From positions 62,001 through 126,000 of the forward strand of contig JACNKX010000081.1 in the NCBI GenBank assembly GCA_014381825.1: 64,000 nucleotides of DNA, written 5' to 3'. Every line of letters begins with the position of its first letter. Position 1 is the stretch's first letter. Positions 5,261 to 50,408 of the stretch are shown piece by piece. The notes under the pieces are model-generated. The model searched no databases, was not told the origin of the DNA, and saw only the letters and a program-made list of their open reading frames with translations. Origin of the DNA: Planctomycetota bacterium. GTDB taxonomy: Bacteria; Planctomycetota; Planctomycetia; Pirellulales; Pirellulaceae. Made by a program: the position numbers and the translations under genes.

Positions 5261-5266
5261 CGGCGG

Positions 5267-11035: not shown

Positions 11036-11044
11036 TACACTAGG

Positions 11045-11173: not shown

Positions 11174-11198
11174 GCGGTTTCCCAGTAGTGGTCGCAGA

Positions 11199-11275
11199 AG
11201 TCGCAAGACTTCCGAATCTGAAGGGCTGAACTCTTGCGAGTCCAGCTACGGCGATCCGAGAACCGGGATAAGCTG
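11199..11275. repeat. AGTCGCAAGACTT repeat, copy 1
   Basis: AGTCGCAAGACTT at 11199-11211 is followed 18 bases later by an imperfect inverse (ACTCTTGCGAGT, 11230-11241) and by CCAGCTACGGCGATCCGAGAAC. Related copies occur at 12988-13037 and 14501-14534, in the gaps between the downstream adaptor genes. The copies share the tail CTACG...CGAGAAC in two cases. This is a short dispersed palindrome family concentrated in this operon. Confidence 0.6.
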
Positions 11276-11522
11276 ATCCAGCGCAACTCGTTACAACGGC
11301 GTCGACCGCAGCGTGGCCTTCGATCGTCGACAGTGCATCGTTTAGATACACACTGTTACAGATCGCTCGCCCAGAAAGACTCTCGGCAGTCGTCGGCTAT
11401 TCCACCTCGGATAACCTCCTGGCTAGAATGGTAAGTTGAGATTGGTTTGCCAAGTATCTGTCGTAGCGCAGGATTTTATCCCTCTTGGCAAGTTGTCTTC
11501 CGACTTTTTACGGAGACCGATC

Positions 11523-12980: not shown

Positions 12981-12987
12981 TAGCTGG

Positions 12988-13037
12988 AGTCGCAAGACTT
13001 TGTGCTGATCGCGAACCATTTCCGAAGTCTTGCGACT
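12988..13037. repeat. AGTCGCAAGACTT repeat, copy 2 (perfect hairpin)
   Basis: Arms AGTCGCAAGACTT (12988-13000) and AAGTCTTGCGACT (13025-13037) pair perfectly around a 24-base loop. The hairpin starts seven bases after the stop of adaptor 1 and ends 33 bases before adaptor 2. It could modulate readthrough or protect mRNA, but there is no T-tract. Confidence 0.75.
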
Positions 13038-13070
13038 TCGGTGACGTGAGACTTCCCGAAAGATTAATTC

Positions 13071-30577: not shown

Positions 30578-33500
30578 TCAGCGGGCACCGGCTGGTATCG
30601 CGACGAAGACCGTTGATCCGCTCGCCTCGGCGACGGCAATTGCATTTCCGTCGCGCGAATAGGTGCCGGAATAGAGAACATTGGGTGCTTTCCCGTTAAA
30701 CGCCGGCTGGCCATCACCGACGTTCCAGACCGTCAAGTTCCCCGCGCGTCCACACGATAACAACCGCGTTCCCGGCTGATTGAACGCTAACTGATAGACC
30801 GCGTCGGTGTGGCCCACTAGTTTCTTCGTGACGACGCCACTAGTGGCATCCCAGATCCGGATCTCTTTCTCGAACCCAGCCCCCGCGACGAAGCGACCAT
30901 CAGGACTGAAGGCGACCGCGAACAATGGCGGCGGCGTCTCGCCCTCTTTCAGTTGTTTTAGCTGCCCGCCGTTGGCAACGGTCCAAAGTCGTAAAATGCC
31001 GTCCGCGCCTCCCGAGACCAATCGTTCCCCCTTGGCGTCAAAGCTGATCCCGTAAACGGCCCCTGTGGTACCAGGGATGGCCCGGACCTGAGTCCCTGCA
31101 GCGGCGTCCCACGTGCGAATCGTTTGATCGCCGCTGGCGGAGGCCACTAGTTTCACATCAGGTGAAAAAGCGACGCCATAGACTGGCGCTGTATGTCCCG
31201 CTAACGAATGCGTTGCGGTCGGCGACGCATCCGCCCAGACCGAAATCTGCTTATCCGCGCCGCCTGTGACGATTGTCTTGTCGGGGGCAAAGGCCACGGC
31301 AGCCAAGGGCGTTGGGCTGACGAGTTCGCTCAGCACGGTCGGTTCCGCCGCGGTCGCATCGTAGACTCGCAGCTTGTTGTCTGCGCCGACCGCCACGACA
31401 CGTTTGCTGTCGAAACTAAAGGCGAGATCGACCACAGGTGAACCTGTTTCGACGGTCTGGTCCAGCGCCCCGTTGGCATACGTCCAGAGATAGACGTGAC
31501 CCTGCGCATCAGCGCCCGCAACTTGAAGCCCATCGGGTCGTAACGCTAGACGTGTCAAATTCGCTGCGACTGGGGCCAGTTGTCGCAACGCGGCACCATC
31601 GACCGTGTTCCAGATCTTCGCAAGCTTGTCCTCGCTGACCGTAATCGCTTGCGCACCGTCTGCTGACAGCACAAGGTCGTTCACTTTCGCGGTGTCTGCC
31701 GACACGACACGAACGGCCGCTGATGTCCACAGTCGTCCGCTTTTGTCGACACTACCGGACAGGATCGTCTTGTTGTCTGCTGCCAGCGACACGCTCACTA
31801 CGTTCGCTTCGTGGCCGGTGAATCGCTCCAGTTCCAAGCCGCTCGCCAAATCCCACAATCGCACAATGTTATCGTCGGCGGCCGTCACGATCCGCGAAGC
31901 GTCCCCACCGACCGATACACTCCGTACGGCGACTGGATGTACGATGTCATTGACCGCCTGACCGTTAGCCAGCGTCCAGGTGCGGACATGTTTATCGACG
32001 CTGCCGGCGATAACGGTTGCTCCGTCCGGTGTGACCGCGACGCTAGTGACAACATCCAGAGCACCGGCAAACGCTCGCAGCTCCGCGCCATCGGCCAGGT
32101 TCCACAATCGTACCGTTTTGTCCGCGCCGCCGCTCACAGCCTGCGCTCCGGCAGCTACGAAGGTCACGCTGTTCACTGCGCCGGTGTGGCCTGCCAGCGA
32201 ACGTTGTAATGCCAGTGGTTGTACCGACGGGACATTGCCTGCCGCGATCACCAGCGACAAACCGTCGGCCAACCATTCAAGGCTATGCACCACGGCCACT
32301 GCGGGGACGTGTTCCAACATCGTCTTGGTCGCTGCATCGTACACTCGCGTGTTCTTGTCTCCACCGGCGGCCAGTCGCGTGCCGCCCGTGTTGTATCGTA
32401 GGCTGTGAACAATGGTAGGGGTCTCAATCTTCTCGACCGCCGCCGCGGCGACCCCGTTGGTAACATTCCAAAGATAGATCTGTTTGTCAGCACCGCCAGC
32501 CGCGATCTGCGTCGCATCCTTTCGCACTGCCAGCGTAAACAACTCGCCGGTACTTCCGGCCAGCGATTGCTTCATCTCTCCGGTCGCATAATCCCACAGC
32601 TTCACGAGCTCGTCGGCCGATGCCGTCATCAGACGCGTGCCATCGGTGGTAATCGCGAGAGCGTTCACGCTGCCTTCCGCCGCTTGGACAACGCGTGTGG
32701 ACGCCATCGTAGAGACTCGCACCGACTTGTCGGCGCTGCTCGAAACGAGTGTCCTGTTATCGGGCAGGAACGCGACGCTGGTCGCCGCGGCAGTATGCCC
32801 GGCGAACCGTTCCAGCGCGAGGCCGCTGGTCACATCCCACACCCGAACAATCATATCGGCGCCTGCAGTCGCCACGCGCAAACCATCCGCACTCAATCCA
32901 ACTCGCCCGAGGGCGACTTTATGTGCGAATGCTTTCTCCAGGGCGATGTTGCCAGCGGGAGTCGGTGGGAGCACCCAGGTTCGCGCCTGGTTGTCCGCGC
33001 TGGTGGCGGCAATCCGCTTGCCGTCCGCGCTGATCGCCAGCGAGTTCACGGCGGCTGTCGCTCCCGTCAAAGTGGCAAGCGGCTTGGCGTCGGCCGTCTG
33101 CCAGGCACGAATCGTCTTGTCGGAGCCGGCAGTTACAAGCCAGGCACCGGCGGGTGCAAAGACAACATCGTTGACGGCACCAGCGTGGCCCGCGAAGGAA
33201 CGCTCGACCGCCTCTTCGCCGCCGTCGACTTGTGCTTGCGTGAGATTCGCTTTCCACAATCGTACGGTTCCGTCAGCACCGGTCGACACGAGTTGCTGAC
33301 CGCCCGGGTGAAAGGCCAATCCCAGTACGGCACCGGCGTGTCCGGTAAACGTGACGCGGTTCGCGCCATCGGCCATAACCCAGATCTTGATCGTTCCCTG
33401 AATGTCCGCCGCCGCAACAAGCGACGCATCGGCGCTAATCGCCACCGAACGAACCGCAGCCGCCAAGCCGCTCAGTTGTTTAGTCACTTGGCCAGTCGCG

Positions 33501-35098
33501 ATGTCGAAGACTCGCACGACCTTGTCGTTGCTGGCAGACACCGCGAGCTTGCCGTCCTTGGAGACCACAACAGCATTCACGACATCGCCGGCAACGGGCA
33601 GCGTCTTGGGTGCCACGATAGGCAACTGCCACCAGCGCATTGCTCCGTCCTCGCCGGCCGAAACAAGACCGGTGCCCTGCGGAGCATACACCAATCCTTT
33701 GACAGCTCCGTCGTGGCCGAGCAGCACACCTTCGGCAGTCCCGTTGGCATTCCAAAAACGGAGCTCTCCTGTCGCGTCGCCGCTGACGATTTGCGCAGCA
33801 TCTGGTCGGATGGCGACGGAGGTCGTTGGTTGCAAATGCCCAGCTAGCGCTCGGATCGCAGCGCCGGTGGCGGGTGTGGAAAGACGAATTGACTTGTCTT
33901 GCGAAGCGGTGGCCAGAAGCAGCCCGTTGGCGCTAATCGCGGTTGCAGTCACCGGCATCGTATGGCCCGCCACGGGCACGCCAGCGATTGGCAAACGCCA
34001 TAATCGTATGGTGCCATCATCGCCAGACGATAGGATCTGCTGCTTGGCCGGATGAATTGCCACCGAGCGGACAGGCCCAGCGTGACCCAGCAGTTGCCCC
34101 AGGTCCTTGCCATCGGCTGTATTCCACAAACGAATCGTTCCGGTTGCGTCCGCTGCGGCGCTCAACGTGGCGTCGCTGCTGATCGCCAGAGCCGTGACCG
34201 CCCCTGTCAGTCCCGCCAGCGTTCGCACTGCCTGGCCCGTCGTTGAATCGTAAACACGAACCGCGTTATCCGCACCACCCGTCAGGGAGAGTTTGCCATC
34301 GCGCGAAATCGCCACAGTGGTGAGAGGACCAGTACTTCCGGCAAGGACCTTGGGCGGAATCAGCGGCAGTTGCCATGTCTTCAGCAGGCCATCGGCGGCG
34401 GTGCTAAACAACGTCTGCGCCGTGGGATGAAACGCGACACCACTGACCGAAACCGCATGAGCGCCGATTTCGCCGAGTGCCGCGCCGTCGACGGGATTCC
34501 AAATGATAATGCGGCCCAGCGCATCAGCGCTGGCAAGCTGGCTCTTGTCAGCTCGGAGATCAATTCGCGTGACCGCCGCAGTATGTCCTTTGAGTTCCTG
34601 CAACATCTTATCTTCAGATCGTTGGTCTTCAGATCGTTGGTCTTCAGATCGTTGCCAAATCTTCACGGCGTTGTCGGCTCCACCCGAAACCAGCCACTGG
34701 CCGTCTTTGCTGACCAGGATCTCGGTCAACCCCTGCGCGTGTGCTGGTGTTTGCCTAATCGGATCGGGAATGAACACGTCCCACAGCTTGAGGGTGTTGT
34801 CACGCGAGCCAGAAACCAGCGAGCGGCCATCGGCGCTGATAGCAAGCGAAAGGACTTGCTCCTCGTGGCCGGTGAGCGTGCGCAGTTCTGCCCCGGTTGT
34901 AGCGTTCCACAGTTTGATCGTGCGATCGAAGCTTGCTGTCGCGATAATCTTACCGTCGGGTGTATACGCAACGCTCGTCACTGCGTCGGTGTGGCCGGTC
35001 AGTGGCTGTGGTGGTTGCTGCGCTGACAGCGGAGCGATGATCAGCAAAAGGAGAACCGCGCAGCAGAGAACCTGATTTTTCGGAAGCAGTGATGTCAT
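30578..35098 (-). CDS. Giant secreted WD40-repeat protein (1506 aa)
   Basis: A Sec signal peptide (MTSLLPKNQVLCCAVLLLLI, ending LSAQ) precedes about 1475 residues made almost wholly of WD40 blades. At roughly 42 residues each that is about 34-35 repeats, or some five propellers. Typical blades read GHTDAVTSVAYTPDGKIIAT and end in LW or VW. In the N-terminal half a three-blade unit of about 127 residues recurs, marked by W-x-LP at KTWQLPLIPP, RLWRLPIAG and RWWQLPIVAP. The N- and C-terminal blades resemble those of the 903-residue WD40 protein (TRLLSCGRAGNLTVWN against NRLLSCGYGGHLIVWD), so this gene looks like an internally expanded paralogue. It is the last gene of the minus-strand train, 46 bases after its upstream neighbour. 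No enzymatic motif was seen; it is probably a scaffold. Confidence 0.88.
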   Translation of the reverse strand: MTSLLPKNQVLCCAVLLLLIIAPLSAQQPPQPLTGHTDAVTSVAYTPDGKIIATASFDRTIKLWNATTGAELRTLTGHEEQVLSLAISADGRSLVSGSRDNTLKLWDVFIPDPIRQTPAHAQGLTEILVSKDGQWLVSGGADNAVKIWQRSEDQRSEDQRSEDKMLQELKGHTAAVTRIDLRADKSQLASADALGRIIIWNPVDGAALGEIGAHAVSVSGVAFHPTAQTLFSTAADGLLKTWQLPLIPPKVLAGSTGPLTTVAISRDGKLSLTGGADNAVRVYDSTTGQAVRTLAGLTGAVTALAISSDATLSAAADATGTIRLWNTADGKDLGQLLGHAGPVRSVAIHPAKQQILSSGDDGTIRLWRLPIAGVPVAGHTMPVTATAISANGLLLATASQDKSIRLSTPATGAAIRALAGHLQPTTSVAIRPDAAQIVSGDATGELRFWNANGTAEGVLLGHDGAVKGLVYAPQGTGLVSAGEDGAMRWWQLPIVAPKTLPVAGDVVNAVVVSKDGKLAVSASNDKVVRVFDIATGQVTKQLSGLAAAVRSVAISADASLVAAADIQGTIKIWVMADGANRVTFTGHAGAVLGLAFHPGGQQLVSTGADGTVRLWKANLTQAQVDGGEEAVERSFAGHAGAVNDVVFAPAGAWLVTAGSDKTIRAWQTADAKPLATLTGATAAVNSLAISADGKRIAATSADNQARTWVLPPTPAGNIALEKAFAHKVALGRVGLSADGLRVATAGADMIVRVWDVTSGLALERFAGHTAAATSVAFLPDNRTLVSSSADKSVRVSTMASTRVVQAAEGSVNALAITTDGTRLMTASADELVKLWDYATGEMKQSLAGSTGELFTLAVRKDATQIAAGGADKQIYLWNVTNGVAAAAVEKIETPTIVHSLRYNTGGTRLAAGGDKNTRVYDAATKTMLEHVPAVAVVHSLEWLADGLSLVIAAGNVPSVQPLALQRSLAGHTGAVNSVTFVAAGAQAVSGGADKTVRLWNLADGAELRAFAGALDVVTSVAVTPDGATVIAGSVDKHVRTWTLANGQAVNDIVHPVAVRSVSVGGDASRIVTAADDNIVRLWDLASGLELERFTGHEANVVSVSLAADNKTILSGSVDKSGRLWTSAAVRVVSADTAKVNDLVLSADGAQAITVSEDKLAKIWNTVDGAALRQLAPVAANLTRLALRPDGLQVAGADAQGHVYLWTYANGALDQTVETGSPVVDLAFSFDSKRVVAVGADNKLRVYDATAAEPTVLSELVSPTPLAAVAFAPDKTIVTGGADKQISVWADASPTATHSLAGHTAPVYGVAFSPDVKLVASASGDQTIRTWDAAAGTQVRAIPGTTGAVYGISFDAKGERLVSGGADGILRLWTVANGGQLKQLKEGETPPPLFAVAFSPDGRFVAGAGFEKEIRIWDATSGVVTKKLVGHTDAVYQLAFNQPGTRLLSCGRAGNLTVWNVGDGQPAFNGKAPNVLYSGTYSRDGNAIAVAEASGSTVFVAIPAGAR
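34611..34655. repeat. 15-bp in-frame tandem repeat, three copies
   Basis: TCTTCAGATCGTTGG occurs at 34611, 34626 and 34641; the last copy differs only in its final base. On the minus strand it encodes QRSED three times, inserted in the linker after a WD40 strand ending KIWQRSED. Its length is a multiple of three, so copy-number change keeps the frame. Confidence 0.85.
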
Positions 35099-35144
35099 GA
35101 TGACGCTCTGGGGACGTAAGGATCAGATTGGGTCAACGGGAACT

Positions 35145-38100
35145 TTACTTATCAGCGACTTGTTCGCTTCCTTGCACCGCGACGTCCGCCGCCTTCTCCG
35201 GTTGAGGCGGTTCGAGATTCTTCAACGTCTGGCCATTGGCTCCATTCCAAATCCGCAACACACTGTCGTGCCCACCCGCGACGAGCACGGCTCCATCTGG
35301 AGTGACATCGACACTGTGCATGAACTCAGTCGATCCGCCGAAGTTCCTAATGGTGCCTCCGTTTGTCGAGCGAACGAACCGGACGATTTTGTCGCCGGAT
35401 GCCGTTGCGATGTCTGGTGTGTCACCGATAAACCGCAGCGAAGTAACTTGCTTCGTGAAACCGGCGATCGTGCGAGTCTGATCGCCATCCTTGGCGTTCC
35501 AAATTTTCACGACGCCGTCTGCACCAGCGCTGGCCAGCACTTGCCCGCCACCTTGCCAAGAGACACTTAACACATGATGAGTATGCCCTTCAAATCGGCG
35601 CAGTAATTCACCGCTGGCTAAGTCGAACGTTCGCACGTACTTATCAGCGCCACACGACGCGATCACTTTGCCATCGGGAGAAAAACGGACACCATGCACC
35701 GTGTCGTCGTGCGCGTTCTCGATCGCGCGAATCAAGGCTCCGTCGGCGACGTTCCAAATCCTCACCTCACCGCTCCGCGAGGGCTCGCCGCTTCCCGTCG
35801 CGAGCTGAGTTCCGTCGCGGTTGAAATCTAGGGCGAGTACGCGATTGATCAGCTGCGTCGGATCCCTAACGTCACCGATCGTTCGCGCCAATTCCCATCC
35901 GGGATTCGTCTCCCAAGCCATCGCCGACTTGTCAGCCGAGCCGCTGACAAGTTCATTGTCGGACACAAATACAAGGCAACGTATGGCTGCTTGATGGCCC
36001 ACAAAGCTGGTGGTGGCCGTGCCGGTCTCGGCATCCCAACCGTGTACTGCCGGAAAATCGCCTCCGGTGGCCAGCTGTCGGCCATCCGGCGAGAACGCCA
36101 CGGCAAATTGAGGCTGCTCTGTCTCCATCGCAACTTTCTTAGCGTCTTCGACGGATTTCTGCGCGGCCAGCAAAGTGGCCTCGGCGACCGTCAGAGCAGT
36201 TTTTAACGTGGGAACCAATGCTGTCGCTGTCTCTAATTCGCGAGCCGAGAGCGTGTTGAGCTGCAACGCAGTGTTCTGCGTCGCCAAAGCCGGGCGTAAC
36301 GCGGCCATCGCGTCGTTGTACGGCTTCTGTGTGGCGGTGACCTTGGCCGCGGCATCCGTCACGGCTTTCGTAGTGTCCGTTACCGCCTTCGCAGGAGTTG
36401 CTTGAGCCGCTTTTGCCGCCGTCGCCATGGCCGTTGCGGCGACAACTTCTTTGTCGGCCTCTGCTTTCGCGGTTGCCAGTCCCGGATCGTCGGGTGATTG
36501 TTGGACAAGCATCGCGAACCTCCCCGCCTTGGCTGTTGCGAGTACGACCAACTTCGCCGTCTCAACCGCCAATCGATCGGCTTCGACCTTGGCTAACGTC
36601 GCTTTCTGTGCGCCGGCAGCTGCTTCGATTGCGAGCTTCTCGGCCGCCACCTTCGCTTCCTCCGTCGTCTTCACAACAGCCGCTTTTGCTTCGGCATCCT
36701 TGTTCGCCGCTGTTAGTGCGTCGGAAGTCTTCTTCGCGGCTGCAGTTTTTACCGGTAGGTCTTTTTCGGCCGCTTCGAAGTTGAGTTTGGCGGCGTCGCG
36801 CTTGGCGGTGGCAGCCGTCTGGTCCTGCGTCAAACGTGCGACAACTGTTTTGGCTCTCAAATCGCCCTTCATTTCGGCAATCTGCTGGCCGTTCTGGGCG
36901 TTCCAAAGCTTTACCGAATTGTTGCTGCTCGCTGAAGCCATTCGCTGTCCATCCGGTCGCACAGCGATTGACTGGATCGGCCCGCCATGATTGAACTGTC
37001 GGATCTGCTGTCCCGTTTCAACGTTCCAGTGGCGAACCGTGCCATCCAAACTGGACGAGAACAGTTGCTTTGCATCGGACGGTAGAACGGCGAGCGACGT
37101 GACCGGCTGTGTGTGAGCCGCAAGCTTTTTAACCGCAAGCAACGGCCAACTTTGTAAGCTCCCATCGGCCGATAACGTCGCGAAACGTTCCGCCTCGAGG
37201 GCGATCAGGCCGTGTACTGCATTCGTATGTCCAACGAAACCTTGCTCCAACTTACGAGTCGCGAACTCGAAGGCAAGAACTTCGTTGGCGGGCGCGGCCG
37301 AGCCACCGATCACGCGAGTTCCGTCGACGGTGAAGACAACGGCCTGGACCGACGTCGTGAAGCCTTGTAGCGGCGTCGGCGCGGCTGGCTGGCCATTCGC
37401 GGAGTTCCAGACTTTGATTACTTTGTCTTCGCCCGCGCTGACAAGAAACTGGGCGTTGGGACTGAGCGCCGCGTCGTGAATCGGGGCACCATGATTCGCG
37501 GAAAACGTCTGCTGCGCATTCGTCGCATTGAAGCCCCTTAGCGTACCGTCAGCGGCTGACGCGTAGACAAACTGTCCGTTCGGGTGAAACGCCAAAGACG
37601 TCACCGGCAATGTCAGCCCCACCATGGCTTGTGCGAAACGCAAAGATCGTCGCTCGACCTGTTGTGCCGTTACGGTCACGAGCGTGTTCACATCCGTCAC
37701 ATAGACGGCAGACGCCAAGCCTTCGATCGGAACTATCTCCAGCAAGCGTCCAGATACGGCGTCCCACGCAGTGGCACTGGCGGCTGTTGTCGTGACGACA
37801 CGCGAGCCATCCGTGCTGAAGGCAAGACGGACAACGCCCGTGGAATGGCCTTCCAGCGAGGCAAGTTTCTGCCCGTTGTTTAGCTGATAAACACGCACTG
37901 CTTTGTCGGCACCGACAACTGCGACGCGCGCGAAGTCACGGGTGATCGCCATCGCCGAGAGTGCCTGTGGGTCCGTGATAGCGCGTACTTGCTGGCCGCT
38001 ACTCGGATTCCAGGTTCGGATCGTCTTGTCGCTCGACGCGGACACGGGTTGATTGGCACTGTTGAAGGCGACACCAACGATCGCGGCTGCGTGTCCGGCG

Positions 38101-40169: not shown

Positions 40170-40188
40170 AGTTTTCTCTTCACTTTTG

Positions 40189-43100
40189 CTATGGCTTCTT
40201 TGGCTCGACCTTTTCGATCTCCAAGTTGAATGGTTGATCGAAGGTGAGCGTTTGATTGTTGACACGCATCGTAGCGCGTAAGGTGATTTCGTGCTTTCCT
40301 GGGGTCGCGTTCGCCGCAGCCGTGATCGCCAGCTTGATTTGTGATTGATTCGCGGGAATGTTCACGTTCGGAAGCGTTAAGCCGCTGACCCCGCGAACCA
40401 CCGTCGTGAAGCTAACCTGATCCTTATATTCGACCAACCGAGCGATGCTGATCGGTAGCTCGATCTTCTCGCCTTGCTTGATCTTTGTTGCCTCGGGAAG
40501 TGCGGCGAACGTGACCGGATACTCGTGGATCTTGATGGTGACCGGCGTCGACGCCGTCCAGTAGTTGATGTTCTTTGCCTTGGCGGCATTGGCCGTGTCG
40601 GTCGCTCGCTTGTCCGTAACTTTCTTTTCGTCCGCCGCCGCCTTCACAAACGCCGTGGCCTCTTCCGCTGCTTTGTCAGCGATCGCTTTTTTCTCGGTGG
40701 CGTCTTTGGCTTTCGCCTGTGTCTCCTCCAATGCCTTGTTTGCCGCGATAGCTGCATCGGTCGCGACTTTCGCTTTCGCAATGGCGTCTGTCGTAACCTT
40801 GTCTGCGGCCGTGACGGCATTTTTCAAGGCCGCATCATCCGGCTTCGCCGCCGCCGCAGCCTTCGCTTTTGTTGAAGCTTCCACCGCTTGCCGCTGAGCA
40901 TTGACAGCAGCGGTCTCAGCTGTCTTGGTCTGAGTTTGCTTCAGTTCGGCGGCTTTGACTGCGTTGGCGGTATCTGTCGCTAGTTTGTCCGCTTGTTGCT
41001 TTGCAGTTGTCGCGGCTTTCGATGCGTTGCCCGCGTCCACTGCGATCTTGTCGATGGCTTCCTTGCGCTTCTTCGCAGCTTCTGCGGCTTCTGGATTACG
41101 AGAATAAGAATAGGCGGCCACGAAGGCCCCTGCGTGCAACGAGTATGTGCCGGCCGGCGTGTTGGTGCGAAGCGTCAGTTGAAACTCGCCCGCAGCGTTG
41201 TTGGCGGCGATGTTGAAGGCGGTGCGGTTGATATTGGCCGGAAGATTCTCGATCTGGCATTGCACTTGGCCTTTGTACTCCGACTGTCGCTTTGCGGTGT
41301 ACGGAATCTTGAGGATGCCCGCCCGCGTGGTTTCCCAGACTTTGTCGTTCTTCAGTTGCACCGCAAAGGGCGATACTCCGTCCACGACGGACAGCGCGAT
41401 TTCGCGGCTGACACGCGCTGGCAAGCTATTGGCAGGCTGTTGGTTCGGTTGGAGCATGGCCCTTGGCGTGTTCGCTGTTCCGCAGCGGGCGACGCGCGTG
41501 ACGTCGCGATCTGCGATTTTGGAGGTGCCCACAATCTTTAGATTCGAGATCGCGGGAGCGACGTTGTCGGCGGCGGTCAGGACCAACGTCGCAACACTCT
41601 TGGAAGGCCCGAGCGTGACCGGTGTGCTAGTCACACCTGCGGGCATTCCCGTTACCGACAGCGTGATCGGTTCGGTCAACCCATCGCGCCGTTCGGCCAG
41701 CACATCGACCGTCGTTCTGTCTCCCTTGCGGAGCACGAGCGCCCCCCAGGGGTCGCGTGGTACGGCAACCAAACGAAAGTCGGGTTGCTCTTTGCGTATC
41801 GCCAGCCGATAAACCAGTCGCGGGTCACTGCGAAGCAAACTGTATCCGTCACGTACCGTTACTCGATACGTTGCATCGGCTGCGGCCACTAACTTGTACG
41901 AGGAGTCGCCGGTCCGCGTATCAAACTGGGCTCGATCACGTGTGCCAATGTCGTCGACCGCGACGAGCGCCTTGACCTGCTCTTCGCCGTCGTCGTTCTT
42001 GGTGACCTCCTGAATGACAAGCTGCGGGTCGGTCGGCAGACCTAACCGATGCGAGATGACTTCGATGGTGTAGGTCTCGTCTTTCTTGGCGTCAAACGTG
42101 TACCAGTCGTTATCGCGACTGGGATAAAACTGGCCAGCAACTTCGCACGGCGGCGAAAGTTTCTGGGCCTGCTGCGGGGAGTCGTTTGCCGCAGCTTCTA
42201 AAACAACAGGGGCCGTCGCGATGCCAACGCACACTGGATTCGACGGCGCGGGCGCGCCTTGGACGCGATACTCGACCGCGTCCAAGAAGGCTTGTTCGGG
42301 ATCGACTCGGCCATTCATCGGCTGAACAATGGCAGGGTCCCCGGGCAAGGCGACATTGACGGCCAGCTTGTCGAGACGTTTGCCATCGACTTGGAATTCG
42401 GACGGTTGGCCACCCGGCAGGTTCCGACCGTAGACCATGTATTGCAAGTTCGAGCCGGCTAGGCCGGCGGGCGGGAAAATGTAGTCGATGTGAGGAAGCG
42501 GACCAATCGCTAGCCGATACACGTAATTCGCACCGCCACGATAAAATGCGTCGGAAATACGCACGTAGTAGTCACCAGTAGCGGGAACTTGAAAGTCGAT
42601 CAGTGCCTCACGCGCATGACCATTACGATTATTCACCAACTCGCGGCCTTTGGCGTCATAAACGCTGAGTGTGGGATTGAGCAGCGAATCGATGCGACGT
42701 GCATGACAATCGAACAGGATTCGCTGGCCGGCGGGAGCGGTAAAGCGAAACATATCGACATCCGTGTTGGCGTTGATCTGACCGTTGACGATCTGTGGCA
42801 GCGCTAGCTCGGTGGCTTGATCGAGTTCATTGTTCGGTTCGACTTCGGTCAGATCCGCAAGATTGCTGAGATCGAACACGCGCGGATTAGAAAGTCCATA
42901 TTTGCCGCGAACTCGCACGTCGAAGGTACCGACAGGAACGTTGCCGGCTACGGTGACGACAAACTGATTAGGAATCGGTTGTGGCTCTTTGTCGAACGCA
43001 GTCGCTTCCGCCATCTTCGGTGTTGCGGTGATGCCCGGATGCGAAAAGTGTAACTCCGCAGCATCGTCCAAATCATTCCCGGTGAGTTTCACGTCGACCG

Positions 43101-43218
43101 TGGTCCCAGCTCGCGCGCCGGCCGGAAAGATGCTGTCCAGACGCGATGCGGGAAGTTGGGCCAAGGCCGATTGAGCAGCAAAAAACAGAACGAGTGCGAT
43201 GGCAGCGAAAGGTCGCAT
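40189..43218 (-). CDS. Exported PPC-domain protein with alanine-rich coiled coil
   Basis: The start is ATG 43218 (MRPFAAIALVLFFAAQSALA), with GGAG nine bases upstream. The protein is 1009 residues. After the signal peptide come an Ig/TIG-like strand region (SIFPAGARAGTTVDVKLTGN), two pre-peptidase C-terminal (PPC) domains at about 125-230 and 340-450, and further beta-sandwich modules. An alanine/lysine/threonine-rich helical stretch covers about 706-886 (KALEETQAKAKDATEKKAIA), and a final beta domain ends EIEKVEPKKP. No peptidase domain is present, so the PPC domains are probably adhesive or structural. The coil resembles in composition and phrasing the coil of the next gene product, so the two could pair. 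It is separated from its neighbours by 29 and 19 bases. Confidence 0.85.
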   Translation of the reverse strand: MRPFAAIALVLFFAAQSALAQLPASRLDSIFPAGARAGTTVDVKLTGNDLDDAAELHFSHPGITATPKMAEATAFDKEPQPIPNQFVVTVAGNVPVGTFDVRVRGKYGLSNPRVFDLSNLADLTEVEPNNELDQATELALPQIVNGQINANTDVDMFRFTAPAGQRILFDCHARRIDSLLNPTLSVYDAKGRELVNNRNGHAREALIDFQVPATGDYYVRISDAFYRGGANYVYRLAIGPLPHIDYIFPPAGLAGSNLQYMVYGRNLPGGQPSEFQVDGKRLDKLAVNVALPGDPAIVQPMNGRVDPEQAFLDAVEYRVQGAPAPSNPVCVGIATAPVVLEAAANDSPQQAQKLSPPCEVAGQFYPSRDNDWYTFDAKKDETYTIEVISHRLGLPTDPQLVIQEVTKNDDGEEQVKALVAVDDIGTRDRAQFDTRTGDSSYKLVAAADATYRVTVRDGYSLLRSDPRLVYRLAIRKEQPDFRLVAVPRDPWGALVLRKGDRTTVDVLAERRDGLTEPITLSVTGMPAGVTSTPVTLGPSKSVATLVLTAADNVAPAISNLKIVGTSKIADRDVTRVARCGTANTPRAMLQPNQQPANSLPARVSREIALSVVDGVSPFAVQLKNDKVWETTRAGILKIPYTAKRQSEYKGQVQCQIENLPANINRTAFNIAANNAAGEFQLTLRTNTPAGTYSLHAGAFVAAYSYSRNPEAAEAAKKRKEAIDKIAVDAGNASKAATTAKQQADKLATDTANAVKAAELKQTQTKTAETAAVNAQRQAVEASTKAKAAAAAKPDDAALKNAVTAADKVTTDAIAKAKVATDAAIAANKALEETQAKAKDATEKKAIADKAAEEATAFVKAAADEKKVTDKRATDTANAAKAKNINYWTASTPVTIKIHEYPVTFAALPEATKIKQGEKIELPISIARLVEYKDQVSFTTVVRGVSGLTLPNVNIPANQSQIKLAITAAANATPGKHEITLRATMRVNNQTLTFDQPFNLEIEKVEPKKP

Positions 43219-43247
43219 CCGGCGTGCTCCTAGATTTTGTAGACGGA

Positions 43248-45842
43248 CTATCTCACAAACAAAAACTCTTTCGTATTGAAGATCGCCCACAGAATATCTT
43301 CGTACGCCTGTTGCTTGTTTTCGTTGGTCTCGGTGTGCGAAAGAACGAACTTCAATTCTTCGTCGTTCGGAGCGCGAGCGTAGGCCCAGTAGTACAACTC
43401 CGTCACCTTCTCGGCGTCCGTCAATTCTTTGTCCTGAGCTAACTGGCGAGCGCGACCGTTGCCGTTGGTCAGCCGGCCTTGGATATCGGTCGAATTGAGT
43501 AGGTGCAGGGATTGCGCGAGGTTCGCATCAGCGCTGCGTTCGCATTCGCAAGCGCTCGCGGCTTCCGGTTTGCCGAAGACTTGCAGGAAGTAGTCGTTAA
43601 AGCCGTTGTCTGGCAGCTGCGTCGCTCGTGTTCCGACCGGAACGCCGCTAAAGCGGGCTTGCACGCCAGCGACTTGATTGATTGCATCATACAGCGGCTC
43701 GGCGTTCAACCGCCGAGGATAGAAGCTGGAGAAGTTCTGGCGATCACGCCCGTTGAACTCGTTGGGTTCGGAACTCAACTGATACGTACTAGATCCGCAA
43801 ATCTGGCGGATCAGATCTTTCAAATCAAACTTGCTCTGCACGAAGTGCGCGGCCAAGGCGTCGAGCAACTCGGGATTCGAAGGCGGATTCGTCGCACGCA
43901 TGTCGTCTTCCGGATCGACGATGCCACGGCCAAAGAAATGCTTCCAGTAGCGATTCGCCAATGCCCTCGCGAAGAAAGGGTTGTCCGTAGCACTCATCCA
44001 ATCGACGAGGTGGTGACGAGGATCCTCGTAAGCCGGAATGTCGAGCGGTTCGCCACCGAGCCCCGTCGGTTTGAGGCTATCGCCCGTTCGCGGATTTCGC
44101 GACGTGGCGACTCCGTCTCGATGAAAAACGGTATCGTTGACGTTGTTGATCGCGAACTTGCTTCGCTTTAAGCCAACTTGCTTGAAGAATGCCTCGAAGC
44201 TGTAGTAGTCGTTCTGGCTCCACTTCTCGAACGGATGGTGGTGGCAGCGGGCACATTGAATCCGCATGCCGAGAAAAAGCTGGGCAGTATCTTCCATCTG
44301 GGTTGCCGATGTCGTGACGACTTTGAACCAGGCCGACGGTGGATGCGACTTTGGATCGCCGGACGCCGCGAGGACGTTCCGCACAAACTGATCGTACGGC
44401 ATGTTTTGCTGTAACGCCTGACGAATCCAGGTATGGAAGCCAAATGTGTACGGGATATCATTCGCATTGACGCGTTTGTTTCGCAGCACGTTTGCCCACT
44501 TGTTCGCAAAGTAATCCGCGTAGCCGGGGCTGTTCAATAAATCGTCGATTAGCTTAGTACGCTTGTTCGCATCCTTGTTTGCGATGAACGCTCGTGCTTC
44601 CTCGGCCGTTGGCAATCGTCCTGCGATGTCGTTTGTCACTCGGCGAATAAACGTCGTGTCGTCGCACAGCTCGGAAGGCGGAATGCCAAGTTTCTGGAGC
44701 TTCGCAAACACATGCTTGTCAACGAAGGTGCGCTCCGGTGGGAGGCTGGTGAAATTGATGCCCAGCGGCACGTTCGCTCGAAAAACGGCGACTCGGCTTT
44801 GAAAGCGAACCATAATCGCGACGTCGCCGGGGATGTCCGACGTGGTGATCAAGCCCGTTGTCGTCGCTGCGGCCATTTCAGCTTCGTTCGGTTCGTAGGT
44901 CGCAATTCGCGTGACATCGCGGGTGGTGCCGTCGCTGTAGTGAGCGACCACGATCACTTGTTGTTTGGTATCGGGATTCATCGATTGCGTTTTGGGGAAG
45001 ACCTCGATGCGCTGAATCGTGGGATCGTCTTCCTCGCCGAACGGCGTCCCTTGTTCGATCCAACTGGTAATCAACTGCCATTCGTAGCTGCCCGGTGATA
45101 AACGATGGCCGCCACCGTGAGGCAACTTGTTCGACGGCTTTGTCAGCAGCAAACTGTACTGCGGGTCTGCGTGGAAGATTCGCCGGCCCCGATCTTCCTT
45201 CACCAAGTACTCGTAGTCATCCTTCGGGTAGAAGCCAAGCAACGACAGCTTAAAGCCATTCTGACCGTCGGACTTCCCGTGGCAGCCACCGGCATTGCAG
45301 CCGAGCTTGGTGAAGATCGGAACGATGTCGTTGCTGAAGTTTACGGGAAGCTGCTCGGTGCAGCGTTCAACGATCAGCTTCAGCTTGGTCTCCTTGCCGC
45401 TGGGTTCGCGCGCGGTGATCGTGGCTTCGCCGTCCGCCAACGGAATGACGAAACCCGCCTTGTCGACTTGTAACACACTTGCGTTATCGACACTGTATGT
45501 CACGCGATGTGTCATATCGTGCAATTGGCCGCTGGAGTATTTTCCAGTCACGACAACTTGTTGGCGCGCGTTCTTTCCCCGCAACACTGGCTCGCCGGCC
45601 TGCTCGAAGTTGATCGCCGTCAACTCCCCAAGTTCGCCGAGCCCAGGGAAGTCGGGCGATGCCGCGTTGGCGGTGATGCTTGCCATACAAATAGCTAATG
45701 TCGCAAAACAGACGCAAATTGCGTTCTTTGTAGAAATACTTGTTGGAGTCCACGCTGTAGCGTGCCTACGTGAGCCAATGGCCAGTCCCGGCAGCCTAAA
45801 GGCTGTACTCCAAAGAGTTCTCCGACAAACCGTAGTCTTCAT
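43248..45842 (-). CDS. DUF1549/DUF1553 heme-motif protein with N-terminal Ig-like domain
   Basis: The start ATG 45842 has a strong AGGAGGAG site five bases upstream, which supports it despite an odd 40-residue n-region encoded partly by a repeat element. The signal core is CVCFATLAICMASITANA. The protein is 864 residues. A bacterial Ig-like (Big_2 type) module lies at about 75-160. A heme-like motif with wider spacing follows (CNAGGCHG, about 180-187), next to QNGFKLSLLGF. DUF1549 contains CARCHHHPF at about 530, and DUF1553 runs to the end (NPFFARALANRYWKHFFGRG; terminal EFLFVR). It is a different subtype from the two PSCyt1-containing proteins in this window. It precedes the PPC gene by 29 bases. 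Confidence 0.9.
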   Translation of the reverse strand: MKTTVCRRTLWSTAFRLPGLAIGSRRHATAWTPTSISTKNAICVCFATLAICMASITANAASPDFPGLGELGELTAINFEQAGEPVLRGKNARQQVVVTGKYSSGQLHDMTHRVTYSVDNASVLQVDKAGFVIPLADGEATITAREPSGKETKLKLIVERCTEQLPVNFSNDIVPIFTKLGCNAGGCHGKSDGQNGFKLSLLGFYPKDDYEYLVKEDRGRRIFHADPQYSLLLTKPSNKLPHGGGHRLSPGSYEWQLITSWIEQGTPFGEEDDPTIQRIEVFPKTQSMNPDTKQQVIVVAHYSDGTTRDVTRIATYEPNEAEMAAATTTGLITTSDIPGDVAIMVRFQSRVAVFRANVPLGINFTSLPPERTFVDKHVFAKLQKLGIPPSELCDDTTFIRRVTNDIAGRLPTAEEARAFIANKDANKRTKLIDDLLNSPGYADYFANKWANVLRNKRVNANDIPYTFGFHTWIRQALQQNMPYDQFVRNVLAASGDPKSHPPSAWFKVVTTSATQMEDTAQLFLGMRIQCARCHHHPFEKWSQNDYYSFEAFFKQVGLKRSKFAINNVNDTVFHRDGVATSRNPRTGDSLKPTGLGGEPLDIPAYEDPRHHLVDWMSATDNPFFARALANRYWKHFFGRGIVDPEDDMRATNPPSNPELLDALAAHFVQSKFDLKDLIRQICGSSTYQLSSEPNEFNGRDRQNFSSFYPRRLNAEPLYDAINQVAGVQARFSGVPVGTRATQLPDNGFNDYFLQVFGKPEAASACECERSADANLAQSLHLLNSTDIQGRLTNGNGRARQLAQDKELTDAEKVTELYYWAYARAPNDEELKFVLSHTETNENKQQAYEDILWAIFNTKEFLFVR
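45743..45813. repeat. REPIN-like repeat with terminal inverted repeats, inside a signal-peptide coding region
   Basis: TTGGAGT at 45743-45749 and ACTCCAA at 45807-45813 are inverted ends. Just inside each end is a small hairpin: CACGCTGTAGCGTG on the left and CAGCCTAAAGGCTG on the right. Two hairpins facing each other inside inverted ends is the layout of REPIN-type elements. It is translated on the minus strand as the segment between MKTTVCRRT and TKNAICVCF. Confidence 0.7.
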
Positions 45843-45968
45843 TGCGGCTCCTCCTGGAGCGAATTACTGTTTTGTTAGCTTGGCAGCCACGAACGAAGCG
45901 AGAGACATGAAACGACACAGTCGATCATCTCTGACTTCTTTCCGTGTCTAATGTGGTTGAAATCGTTT

Positions 45969-48680
45969 TCAGCGTGCATTCGTAGGCAGATCGAAAAGTT
46001 GAGCAGTTCCATTATCGGACGCCACGACGATCTGCGAATCGTCGGGCGAGTAGGTGACTGAGTTTAACACGCCACGCGCGAGCATCGTGTGCAATTGTTT
46101 ACCACTGGGAAAGTCCCAGACGATCAAGTGACCGCCGTAACCACATGACAGCAGGCGGTTGCCGGCGTGATTAAAGGCAACACGATAAATGTAATCGGGA
46201 TGGCCCTCGAGCGTGGCCTTGAGCGTGCCGCCGAAAACGTCGTAGACGAAGACCTTTCGATCGATTCCGCCTGCAGCGACTGTCCTTCCATCGAGATGGA
46301 TCGCGACGGTATAAAGCGAGCTTGGCGCGTTGATCTGTTTGAGCTGCCGACCGCCCAGCCGATCCCACAGCCGAATCGTGCTGTCTCCGCCAGCTGACAC
46401 GATCCACGAAGAATCCGCACTCACCGACAAACCGAACACGGTACCCGAGTGGCCACTGAGCGCGCGAATTTGCCGGCCTGCGACGGGGTCCCAGAGACGC
46501 ACTGTATTGTCGGCACTTGCGGACACGAGCGTCGTGCCGTCGTTGCTGAAGACAAGGTTGAAGATGCCGCCGGCATGCCCGGTCATGTTGCGTGTTAGTA
46601 CGGGCGAGGCGTAGGCCCATTCGGCCAACACTCCGGATTCGTGGGCCACGGCGACACGCTGGTTATCCGGTAGAAACGCAATCCGCGCCATCGGCGAATC
46701 GACTGCGCATTCCTGCAGCAAGGTCTGATCGTTCGTCGCGTAGAAGCGAAGCTTTTGATCGGCTCCCGCGACTGCCAGCTTCATAACAGTTTCGTTACTG
46801 AGGGAGAGCGAGACCGCCGGGGCCGGTGTTTTAAACTCCGCCGTCACCGTTCCGTTTCCACTATTCCACACGAAGACGCGACCATCCTCCGCACCAGCAG
46901 CAACGAATTGGTTGTTGACCGACGTAGCAATCGAATGCAACTTGACTTCCTCGGTAGAAATCTCGCGAGCCAGCAGGCCATTGGCAGTTGTCCACAGTTT
47001 GACAATGCCGTCGCCCGCTACGGTGGCGAGCGCATTTCCGCCTTGGTACACAGCCGCGTCAACGATGCTGTTCTCGTGGGCAACGATCGACCGGAGAGCG
47101 GACACCGTTGATCGCCGCAGGCCATTGCTGGCGTCGATCGAGATTAGCGTCTTCGAATCGGGCAAATACGAAACGGCTCGCGTGGGCTTGGCATGATCGG
47201 GGAAGAACTGCAATTCGCCACCGTTGTTGACTTGCCAGGCGTGAACATTGTTACCATCGGTTGCCGCCAGTTGTTGGCTGTTGGGGCTGAACGCAAGCGA
47301 CGTCAAATCACTCGCCTCCGCGACCGTCTTCAGCAACATGCCATCCGCCTGCTGCCACAGCTTAAGCTGTTTGTCGTCTCCCCATGAGGCGATCTTCGTG
47401 TTGTCAACGCTGAGCGCAATGTGCTTAACCGGCGAACTGTGCTCGATCGTCCGAATGAGTTCGCCGTTGCTCTTGTTCCAGAGGCGAATGGTTCCATCCA
47501 ACGACGCCGAAGCGACGACGGTGGCTGAAACCATCAACGCCGTGATGTCACCGGCGTGGCCCTCCATGCTCCGGACGATCTTGCCATCCGCCATGTTCCA
47601 TTGATGAATCTGCTTGTCAGAACCGGCAGACAGGACGGTTGCCGTGTCGGCGAAAGCGACAGCCCGGACAGCTGCGTCGTGACCGGAGTATTTTAGAAGC
47701 TCGGGAAACTTGGCGTCCGCGATGTCCCACACGCGGACCGTTTTGTCTTCGGAGCCGGAAACGAGTCGCGTATGGTTGTTGTTGAAGGCCAGCGAGGTGA
47801 TAGGAGCTTCGTGTCCGAGCAGCGTCGCCACGACCGATCCGTCTTCGACCTTGCGAACGATAATGGTTGGACGATCGTTGAGTCTTCCGGCGGTCGCCAG
47901 TCGCAGGCCGTCAGTGCTGATCGTTGCGAAATCGACAATGAGTTCTTCGCTCGCGATTTCAGAAGGTGATACGATCGGCAGTTGCCACACTTTTGCCAAG
48001 CCATCCGCTCCGGTCGAAATTACTTGCTGATTGTTCGAGTGATAAAACAGGGCGGTGACTTCGCCTCGATGCGCACCGAGAGTTCCCTCCGACGCACGGT
48101 CGATAGTTCGCCACAGCCGGATGAAACCTGCTGCATCGGCGGTGGCGATTTGATTCCGGTCCGCGCGGTAGGCTGCCGCCGTCACATCGGCGGTGTGCCC
48201 TTCGATGACAATCGCGTCGCGTTGCTTTTGCGTGTCCCACAAGCGAACCGTTTTGTCACGGCTGGCGGAGAGAAAGACTGTGGCTTCGGCGTTGAAGGCG
48301 AACGAAGTCGTGGCAGCCTGGTGGCCGGCGAAGATCCGCAGTGGCTTGGTTTGTGGGATATCCCAAAGCTTGATCGTGTTGTCGCGAGCTCCGCTGGCCA
48401 GCACGCGTCCGTTCGGGCTGATCGCCATCGAGCTGACTGGCGCAGTGTTCCCGGTCCACGTTACGAGTTCCTCGCCAGTGGCGGTGTTCCAGAGTTTCAG
48501 TAAGTGATCCGCGCTGGACGTTCCGATTGCCGAGCCATCCGGTGTGAAATCCGCCATCGTCACCGCACCGAGGTGGCCGGAGAACGTGCGCGAAGGTTGC
48601 GAGGCCGGCTGGGCGCAAACAGCGGGTGCGGCCAACAGCATAGTCGCGGCAATTAGTTGCGCGAGGCGAGCTTGCATCAT
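45969..48680 (-). CDS. Secreted WD40-repeat protein (903 aa)
   Basis: The signal peptide MMQARLAQLIAATMLLAAPA ends near VCAQ; ATG 48677 is an equally good start. The rest is about 20 WD40 blades in roughly three propellers, for example GHLGAVTMADFTPDGSAIGT and GHSGTVFGLSVSADSSWIVS. Its first four and last five blades match those of the 1506-residue protein closely. It lacks the three-blade expansion, coiled coil and heme motif of its relatives. It is the first gene of the train; 126 bases separate it from the DUF1549/1553 gene, so an internal promoter is possible. Function unknown, presumably protein-protein contacts in the periplasm. Confidence 0.88.
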   Translation of the reverse strand: MMQARLAQLIAATMLLAAPAVCAQPASQPSRTFSGHLGAVTMADFTPDGSAIGTSSADHLLKLWNTATGEELVTWTGNTAPVSSMAISPNGRVLASGARDNTIKLWDIPQTKPLRIFAGHQAATTSFAFNAEATVFLSASRDKTVRLWDTQKQRDAIVIEGHTADVTAAAYRADRNQIATADAAGFIRLWRTIDRASEGTLGAHRGEVTALFYHSNNQQVISTGADGLAKVWQLPIVSPSEIASEELIVDFATISTDGLRLATAGRLNDRPTIIVRKVEDGSVVATLLGHEAPITSLAFNNNHTRLVSGSEDKTVRVWDIADAKFPELLKYSGHDAAVRAVAFADTATVLSAGSDKQIHQWNMADGKIVRSMEGHAGDITALMVSATVVASASLDGTIRLWNKSNGELIRTIEHSSPVKHIALSVDNTKIASWGDDKQLKLWQQADGMLLKTVAEASDLTSLAFSPNSQQLAATDGNNVHAWQVNNGGELQFFPDHAKPTRAVSYLPDSKTLISIDASNGLRRSTVSALRSIVAHENSIVDAAVYQGGNALATVAGDGIVKLWTTANGLLAREISTEEVKLHSIATSVNNQFVAAGAEDGRVFVWNSGNGTVTAEFKTPAPAVSLSLSNETVMKLAVAGADQKLRFYATNDQTLLQECAVDSPMARIAFLPDNQRVAVAHESGVLAEWAYASPVLTRNMTGHAGGIFNLVFSNDGTTLVSASADNTVRLWDPVAGRQIRALSGHSGTVFGLSVSADSSWIVSAGGDSTIRLWDRLGGRQLKQINAPSSLYTVAIHLDGRTVAAGGIDRKVFVYDVFGGTLKATLEGHPDYIYRVAFNHAGNRLLSCGYGGHLIVWDFPSGKQLHTMLARGVLNSVTYSPDDSQIVVASDNGTAQLFDLPTNAR

Positions 48681-49124: not shown

Positions 49125-50408
49125 TTACACGTCTGGCAACCGCCATGGGTCACGACGTTGACGATCGAGCAAATGGTTGTCTGCCGCATCAGCGAATTCC
49201 CATCGCTTAGGATTCCACTTCAGTCGCTTCTGGTTCCAGTAGGCAAGATTACCAAGGTGAATAATGCTCACCGTGCGGGCACCTTTTTCGACTTCTGCGA
49301 CGGGCGCTTCGCGACTTTTAATACAGTCGAGCCAATTTCGGTGATGCCCAGGCGACTTGGGCAAATGAACATCATCCTCGCCAAGCGGCGTCTTAACGAT
49401 ATCTTCGGGGTCACTCGTCAGTCGACCTCGATCGATATGCAGCGTTCCGTTTTCCCCGTGGAACGTGCAGCCGCTTGGTCCGCCGTGAACCATCTCGACG
49501 CCGTTTGCATAGATGAAACGAACGCCGCTTGTGGCCTTTGGATCATCCGGCGGAATGATTTCGACGGGCCCCGACTCGTCCATATTCAATGCCCATTGGG
49601 CGATATCATAGTGATGCGCACCCATGTCCGTGTGTCCGCCACCAGAATACTCACGGTAGTTGCGCCACGCCGGAAAGTGATTGTGAGTGCCACGCGGACT
49701 GAGAATGGAGTTGTAAGGACGAAGCGGAGCCTGGCCCAGCCACATGTCCCAGGCAAGATCCGGTTCCAGTTCTTCTCCGGGCAAGTCGCATGGGATACTT
49801 GGAGCACCCACGCCGACGGTGACACGGTGGATCTTCCCCAGTCGACCGCTGCGAATGATTTCCACAGCTTCCCGAAACGGGCCAAACACGTTGGACCGCT
49901 GTTGACTGCCAGTTTGCACAACTCGCTTGTACTTGCGAGCCGCCTCGATACATCGCTTGGCCTCCTCAATCGTCAGCGTCAGCGGTTTTTCGCAGTAGAC
50001 ATCTTTGCCCGACTTACAGGCTTCGATGATCGGGATAGCATGCCAATGATCCGGCGCTGCGATACAAATCGCGTCGATGTCACTTCGTTCGATGATCTTT
50101 CGAAAATCAACGTACGTCTCGCATCCCTTGTAATCCGTCTTTGCACTTGAATACTTGGCTTCGACGCGGCCTTTCGCGCGCTCTCGCCGCTTCTGATCGA
50201 CTTCGCAGACGGCGACCAGTTGCACATCCGACTGAGCCAGAAGTTGGGGGATGTGATAGTCGTTCGCCATCTTACCGCAACCAATCATGGCAACATTGAT
50301 CCGGTCATTCGGTGCCGTGCTGTTGGGGTTGCCCAGAGCAGAAGCGGAAACAATGACCGGTGCAATTGCGGCGGTAGACTTCAAGAATGTTCGTCGGGAA
50401 ATCGTCAT
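49125..50408 (-). CDS. Gfo/Idh/MocA-family oxidoreductase, Tat-exported
   Basis: This 427-residue protein has a twin-arginine leader (TISRRTFLKSTAAIAPVIVS). The NAD(P)-binding Rossmann start is INVAMIGCGKMANDYHIPQL, and the family's CEKPLTLTIEEAK motif (Glu-Lys-Pro near residue 145) is intact. The C-terminal part contains GGGHTDMGAHHYDIAQWALN, with the histidines usual for this family. Tat export fits a protein that folds with its cofactor in the cytoplasm. The substrate is unknown; family members act on sugars, inositols or their derivatives. It stands alone between the WD40 train and a divergent hydrolase gene. Confidence 0.92.
   Translation of the reverse strand: MTISRRTFLKSTAAIAPVIVSASALGNPNSTAPNDRINVAMIGCGKMANDYHIPQLLAQSDVQLVAVCEVDQKRRERAKGRVEAKYSSAKTDYKGCETYVDFRKIIERSDIDAICIAAPDHWHAIPIIEACKSGKDVYCEKPLTLTIEEAKRCIEAARKYKRVVQTGSQQRSNVFGPFREAVEIIRSGRLGKIHRVTVGVGAPSIPCDLPGEELEPDLAWDMWLGQAPLRPYNSILSPRGTHNHFPAWRNYREYSGGGHTDMGAHHYDIAQWALNMDESGPVEIIPPDDPKATSGVRFIYANGVEMVHGGPSGCTFHGENGTLHIDRGRLTSDPEDIVKTPLGEDDVHLPKSPGHHRNWLDCIKSREAPVAEVEKGARTVSIIHLGNLAYWNQKRLKWNPKRWEFADAADNHLLDRQRRDPWRLPDV

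Follow-up and report, generated by a model that had tools for sequence, protein, structure and literature searches.

A conserved three-gene core of PSCyt2/PSD1, PPC-coil and PSCyt1-WD40 genes in a planctomycete genome and its probable DUF1501 partner

PSCyt, PSD and DUF1501 genes have been described in several settings. In freshwater Verrucomicrobia, according to excerpts of PMC5615132, PSCyt genes occur with PSD, Big_2, WD40 and CBM domains beside two conserved families of unknown function, and sulfatases neighbour PSCyt genes. PSD1 and PSCyt2 are each counted 41 times in R. baltica (PMC2754498, in part), and DUF1501 is frequently annotated beside planctomycete WD40 genes in the accessible passages of PMC5587647. 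Kamneva et al. 2012 (10.1093/gbe/evs113), as cited in portions of PMC4452313 and PMC4960237, reported a DUF1501 module that is preferentially found in compartmentalised PVC species, and the same portion of PMC4452313 states that several proteins of PVC DUF1501 clusters carry signal peptides. The available part of PMC8567305 contains nothing on DUF1501 or PSCyt. In other bacteria DUF1501 is paired with DUF1800, as described in a section of PMC5122149. PSCyt, PSD and DUF1501 genes are abundant in the planctomycete genome analysed here (9.7 Mb, 238 contigs), which holds 144 PSCyt2 matches and more than 100 paralogues, and the papers cited here give no tested function for them. The locus described below is a good entry point to the function of the family because it is a conserved version with fixed core partners.

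Gene layout and conservation of the three-gene core

The window, a stretch of 64,000 nucleotides of this genome, contains a train of minus-strand genes and a DUF1501 gene (Table 1). ORF translations bear out the coordinates and strand that an earlier note on the same DNA had given for five genes at 30578-48680, and its domain calls for the five proteins agree with Pfam, which scores PSCyt2 at 174.3 bits and PSD1 at 155.6 bits on P0004, both above their cut-offs, and PSCyt1 at 50.3 bits on P0002. The NCBIfam search yielded no match above cut-off. In order of transcription, the genes encode the 903-aa WD40 protein, the PSCyt2/PSD1 protein, the PPC-coil protein, the PSCyt1-WD40-coil protein and the 1506-aa WD40 protein, with gaps of 126, 29, 19 and 46 bases when likely starts are used, the last three of which reproduce the 19-46-base spacing reported earlier for the last four genes. 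The five N-termini are signal-like, in line with the signal peptides initially assigned to all of them, as judged by eye without a predictor; the starts of the PSCyt2/PSD1 and PSCyt1-WD40 proteins are uncertain because their signal peptides come after long N-terminal stretches. The two nearest relatives of every core protein share 75-82% identity with it, so the core genes are real. The DUF1501 gene does converge on the train from the plus strand, with 123 bases between it and the gene for the 1506-aa WD40 protein. The promoter and terminator scan was uninformative, because scores at the locus were no higher than those of shuffled controls.

Table 1 Features of the locus and their positions in the window
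Feature	Protein	Position	Strand	Remarks
Stand-alone WD40 protein, predicted exported	P0005	45969..48680	-	903 aa; variable accessory; Pfam
Core gene 1: Big_2, CX4CH domain, second Ig-like domain, PSCyt2 (DUF1549, CXXCH), PSD1 (DUF1553)	P0004	43248..45842	-	864 aa
Core gene 2: PPC/Ig-like, with Ala/Lys-rich coiled-coil insert of ~180 residues	P0003	40189..43218	-	ORF to 43290; likely start Met25
Core gene 3: PSCyt1 (CLACH, later MPP), WD40 propellers with coiled-coil insert	P0002	35145..40169	-	ORF to 40265; likely start Met33
Stand-alone WD40 protein, predicted exported	P0001	30578..35098	-	1506 aa; variable accessory
DUF1501 protein, putative twin-arginine signal, predicted sulfatase/alkaline-phosphatase-type fold; probable partner	P0006	29093..30454	+	

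Elsewhere in the window lie two more PSCyt1-PSCyt2-PSD1 genes, one at 3890-7699 (minus strand) that directly adjoins a DUF1501 gene and one at 60825-63185 (plus strand) that precedes a DUF1501 gene crossing the window end. An 1134-aa protein encoded at 20021-23425 (plus strand) combines a YNCE-like propeller, a match to di-heme cytochrome c peroxidase and C-terminal ankyrin repeats, and three consecutive proteins encoded at 7940-14495 (plus strand), the first of 1031 aa, give outer-membrane efflux or HlyD-type matches, some of them below the Pfam cut-off.

Conservation of the locus was assessed in two sets. The first comprised 80 named loci and was fetched solely by alignment of the PSCyt2/PSD1 protein, so that gene order in it is unselected. 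Our classifier recognised 78 PSCyt2/PSD1 genes in 76 of these loci; in the other four (L109, L117, L125 and L153) a longer opposite-strand ORF had been retained at the expected gene position. Cores with at least 6.5 kb of downstream sequence were considered eligible (n = 41), and a core was scored as ordered if genes on its own strand encoded a PPC protein at a distance of up to 3 kb and a PSCyt1-WD40 protein at up to 9 kb. Of the 41 eligible cores, 35 preserve this co-directional series (PSCyt2/PSD1, PPC-coil, PSCyt1-WD40), in loci titled Planctomycetota and Verrucomicrobiota, some of the MAG titles being doubtful. One of the 35 (L102) has its partners past a second, tandem PSCyt2/PSD1 gene. 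The six misses are as follows: L103 is the first of two tandem PSCyt2/PSD1 genes, the second of which has both partners; L143 has separate ORFs for PSCyt1 and WD40; the PPC gene is split and PSCyt1-WD40 absent in L115; PPC is absent in L128, and both partners are absent in L141 and L160. The suggestion that the train is a conserved unit rather than a chance arrangement thus survives the check for scattered homologues in related genomes that had been proposed with it.

The second set, chosen by the PPC protein, consisted of 34 regions plus the window and contained 29 recognised cores, with the full order in 20 of 27 eligible ones. Five of the seven misses are paralogue regions of the window's genome that were taken on purpose (C37, C1, C15, C84 and C194), which carry PSCyt2/PSD1, a shorter PPC and DUF1501 genes and from which PSCyt1-WD40 is absent; the remaining two are G058_C120 and G021_C1b. 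No PSCyt2/PSD1 gene was recognised in six of the 35 regions (G040_C88, G044_C243, G046_C84, G049_C15, G037_C22 and G056_C196), and the PPC and PSCyt1-WD40 pair is still there in three of these (G046, at a contig end, G037 and G056). Named loci L092 and L119 are apparently the same contigs as two genomes among the relatives. In the 56 complete (three-gene) cores, the first gap has a median length of 135.5 bases and the second of 41.5 bases; 33 of the first gaps and 51 of the second do not exceed 200 bases. Identity to P0004 is 49-82% for 60 of the 62 PSCyt2/PSD1 relatives in the alignment and 38% for the remaining two. Phylum-wide, the PPC profile found matches at E ≤1e-60 in at least 16 of 199 genomes, with up to four candidates per genome scored. 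The window's genome harbors a second three-gene core (G000 contig C70, 131741-134749) without flanking WD40 genes, and G018_C148 repeats the full arrangement of the window, DUF1501 included. Locus L095 (record CP036272.1, SV_7m_r), from a cultured strain, carries its WD40, PSCyt2/PSD1, PPC-coil, PSCyt1-WD40 and DUF1501 genes on a single strand. Judged from this conserved gene order, the three-gene core is very probably one working unit.

Both partner proteins share a coiled-coil feature. An insert of at least 40 residues is found in 54 of the 56 PPC proteins and in 52 of the 56 PSCyt1-WD40 ORFs; two of the 56 rows repeat a contig, and the four PSCyt1-WD40 exceptions come from ORFs that are split or cut. 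End-to-end docking of the paired coils was considered and rejected, as their lengths do not co-vary (rho 0.06). The sequence search for solved structures returned none for the PPC protein.

The outer WD40 genes behave differently from the core. Same-strand WD40-only genes at most 3 kb upstream accompany 9 of the 78 cores from the named loci and 6 of the 29 from the second set, cores at contig ends included, and their position differs among loci. The 903-aa and 1506-aa proteins of the window are related to each other, at ~30% identity. The outer WD40 genes are variable, optional extras. Because WD40-only genes are infrequent and variably placed, only the three-gene core counts as the conserved assembly, and the WD40 proteins are optional. 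Of the five-gene assembly originally proposed, the existence of a conserved unit therefore stands, and its extent does not: three genes are conserved, the outer WD40 genes vary and DUF1501 often lies elsewhere. Comparison of flanking ORFs (at least 150 aa, within 6 kb of the core) revealed no recurrent transporter, regulator or enzyme, no other gene family being present in more than 6 of 78 flanking regions. Likewise, the Pfam scan of 26 window proteins (best 25 families for the WD40 proteins) detected no glycoside hydrolase, TonB receptor or SusD partner, and no CBM was found by Pfam in P0003, P0004 or P0006. A GFO/IDH/MocA oxidoreductase gene at 49125-50408 lies upstream of the train on the same (minus) strand, probably incidentally; relatives of its protein flank G018_C148, L098 and G000_C194.

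Predicted heme sites and the DUF1501 protein

A CXXCH motif with a later Met is the expected pattern of a His/Met cytochrome. In the PSCyt1 domain, C123, C126, H127, M176, P177 and P178 are invariant in 38 aligned sequences. All 63 aligned sequences of the PSCyt2/PSD1 protein keep C182-x4-C187-H188, H242 and C530-x2-C533-H534; C765 and C767 are invariant as well. The "CxxCH-like motifs" noted earlier for P0004 hence exist as Cys-His motifs and are to be specified as precisely one C-x4-C-H (182-188) and one C-x2-C-H (530-534). By eye, the CX4CH domain resembles a divergent PSCyt1 domain; Pfam finds no match at this region, and in the P0004 model (mean pLDDT 85.4) the stretch 182-203 falls below 50. 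Cytochrome c assembly genes are present in the window's genome, and the motifs are predicted sites of heme loading. Foldseek matches of the P0004 model (50 of 1111 listed) are at the top mostly Ig-rich proteins, including LigA and S-layer proteins, together with nuclear pore and phage proteins. In a PDB profile search, the PSCyt2/PSD1 protein matched Ig domains and, weakly and near 384-433, phycobilisome linkers. The PSCyt2 domain (P0004 384-448) also bears a weak likeness to phycobilisome linkers in Pfam, where 13 of the 20 proteins aligned have such a match at E ≤1.

The model of the DUF1501 protein P0006 (mean pLDDT 84.5) gave 155 PDB matches at E ≤0.001, and titles among the 50 listed are mainly those of sulfatases, sulfamidase and LtaS, with modest TM-scores of ~0.3-0.4. 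A sulfatase/alkaline-phosphatase-type fold is predicted on this basis. The sulfatase motif C/S-x-P-x-R occurs in the expected region in none of 53 DUF1501 proteins, four of which have such letters elsewhere. All 53 sequences have H143, W317, D318, H320 and H376, E361 and D375 are each kept in 52 of 53, and His143 may, to judge from spacing, sit near the place of the nucleophile. Arginines R37-R38 are invariant in the 53 aligned proteins, which suggests export by Tat. The sequence search for solved structures returned none for DUF1501. Another DUF1501 protein of the window (3890-5260) scores above the Pfam Sulfatase cut-off.

Several lines of evidence connect a particular DUF1501 clade with the core. 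A relative of P0006 scoring above 660 bits was found in 11 of the 59 genomes of the relatives' set, and all 11 are among the 14 genomes whose best PPC match reaches at least 610 bits. The chance of this overlap is ~1e-9 (1e-6 and 0.002 for same-family and other genomes separately), p-values that are indicative, since both cut-offs were set after seeing the lists and shared ancestry was treated solely by the same-family/other split. Five of the 11 relatives carry the close DUF1501 gene on the contig of the core and near it, in convergent, upstream co-directional or downstream co-directional position; in the other six it is on a different contig from the PPC match, which weighs against the assembly we favour below. 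A tree was built from 86 DUF1501 proteins, every one encoded in a region fetched for a core or a paralogue; it groups P0006 with seven further proteins in a single clade (support 1.0), and each member lies next to a core. In loci with Verrucomicrobia in the title, the core is often immediately preceded by one, two or three co-directional DUF1501 genes. In the window's genome, at least 114 of 142 PSCyt2 genes have a same-strand DUF1501 gene within 5 kb, with ~12% expected by chance on either strand; DUF1501 counts are lower bounds, as 127 candidates were scored and P0006 itself was omitted. The 26 PSCyt2 genes that have no DUF1501 within 5 kb include that of P0004, from which P0006 is ~13 kb away and convergent. 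Over all loci, contig ends included, a DUF1501 gene lies within 6 kb upstream or 15 kb downstream of 13 of 35 ordered cores and in 28 of 76 named loci with a core. The DUF1501 clade is probably a partner of this core subtype. The idea that the convergent DUF1501 gene supplies a missing partner accordingly gains from the clade of its own that adjoins the core and from the 11 of 11 co-occurrence, and is limited by the presence of DUF1501 near only 13 of 35 ordered cores.

Possible roles of the assembly

We tentatively favour, with somewhat less than even confidence, an exported assembly with redox and hydrolase-like functions, built from predicted c-hemes, a coil-armed PPC/Ig and WD40 scaffold and a hydrolase-like DUF1501 subunit whose target would be a polymer of the envelope or outside the cell. 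All components would be exported and would form a physical complex with electron flow, catalysis and a substrate of its own. The PSCyt2/PSD1 protein, with two predicted c-type sites, would carry electrons, as would the PSCyt1 domain of the WD40-coil protein with one predicted site (Cys-Cys-His and a later Met). The PPC/Ig and WD40 proteins, each with a long coiled-coil arm, would serve as scaffold, and the Tat-exported DUF1501 protein beside it would be a metal-dependent, hydrolase-like subunit targeting an envelope or extracellular polymer. The high conservation of PSCyt2/PSD1 (60 of 62 relatives at 49-82% identity) suggests that the substrate is constant. Against this reading weigh the coil lengths without co-variation, the often unlinked DUF1501 and the flanking regions, in which no linked or recurring substrate gene was seen.

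The main alternative is a structural envelope assembly, namely a scaffold, a surface layer or an organiser of intracellular membranes, in which the Cys-His motifs are structural or metal-binding and DUF1501 is a pseudo-enzyme or uninvolved; we regard it as possible, if doubtful. It draws on the abundant propeller, Ig and coil content of the proteins, on the mostly Ig-rich top Foldseek matches of P0004 (50 of 1111 listed), and on the preference of the DUF1501 module for compartmentalised PVC species (portions of PMC4960237 and PMC4452313). Moreover, no other flank gene occurs in more than 6 of 78 regions and most ordered cores have no nearby DUF1501. However, the CXXCH and MPP of PSCyt1 are invariant across loci titled from two phyla, and DUF1501 keeps D318, H320 and H376 (53 of 53) and E361 and D375 (52 of 53) in an active-site-like set.

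A module resembling polysaccharide utilisation, drawn from the expanded PSCyt/DUF1501 family and directed at one particular external glycan, is distinctly unlikely. CBM domains in PSCyt genes and sulfatases beside them, both reported (excerpts of PMC5615132), as well as the more than 100 paralogues in the window's genome would fit such a role, but the PSCyt2/PSD1 protein is little diversified (60 of 62 relatives 49-82% identical to P0004), CBMs are absent by Pfam from P0003, P0004 and P0006, and neither a glycoside hydrolase nor a TonB receptor is among the 26 window proteins scanned (best 25 families for the WD40 proteins). That the genes are chance neighbours, or unrelated exported genes on a shared transcript, is highly improbable and for the three-gene core largely refuted: WD40 and PSCyt genes are indeed numerous in planctomycete genomes and the full order is missing in 6 of 41 eligible cores, but order and strand are kept in 35 of 41, in loci titled Planctomycetota and Verrucomicrobiota.

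Relation to DUF1800 and to other known systems

All three strong DUF1800 genes of the window's genome (Pfam 107-116 bits) adjoin a DUF1501 gene. In hhalign, a 26-sequence DUF1800 profile aligned with PSCyt2/PSD1 residues 653-862, reaching both C-termini, at 80.8% probability and E 1.3e-5, compared with at most 0.4% in ten column-shuffled controls and one reversed control, and 7.5% when only three DUF1800 sequences were used. The Pfam DUF1800 model has no match on P0004 at E ≤1, and eight of 20 aligned relatives match it at E ≤1, the best at 0.0021. PSD1 is probably distantly homologous to DUF1800. A genome of the same genus (G001), listed as 8% contaminated, has 16 DUF1800 matches at E ≤1e-60, and the window's genome has three. 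If the DUF1800 link is true, the question of function reaches many other bacteria. We consider it rather unlikely, but conceivable, that one family gave rise to both PSCyt2/PSD1 and DUF1800, each paired with a sulfatase-fold DUF1501, and that in PVC bacteria this widespread pair became an envelope machine with hemes and a scaffold of propellers and coils, of ancient, little-changing function, and then expanded about a hundredfold in such genomes.

The DUF1800-DUF1501 pair has in common with PSCyt2/PSD1 a DUF1501 partner, a probable one in the case of this core, and PSD1 aligns with the C-terminal half of DUF1800; unlike the core, it was seen with no PPC or WD40 partners. With the sulfatase/alkaline phosphatase superfamily DUF1501 shares a predicted fold, and it differs in that the sulfatase motif is absent in the expected region, where the invariant His143 is found instead. 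The PSCyt/PSD genes of PMC5615132 share PSCyt1, PSCyt2, PSD1, Big_2 and WD40 domains and conserved neighbours with the locus, whereas the ordered PSCyt2/PSD1, PPC-coil, PSCyt1-WD40 core is not described in the accessible part of that article. No description of the ordered core was found in the openly licensed literature that was searched, so the label "undescribed" given to the assembly by the earlier note can be kept for this gene order; it does not hold for the DUF1501 module of PVC bacteria or for PSCyt genes with conserved unknown families, both of which are already published in the passages cited here. The module of Kamneva et al. 2012, as far as it is cited in those passages, matches the locus in its DUF1501 gene clusters in PVC bacteria and in its signal peptides, and may already include parts of this core. 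The locus is best read as a conserved variant of the known, uncharacterised PSCyt2/PSD1-DUF1501 module of PVC bacteria.
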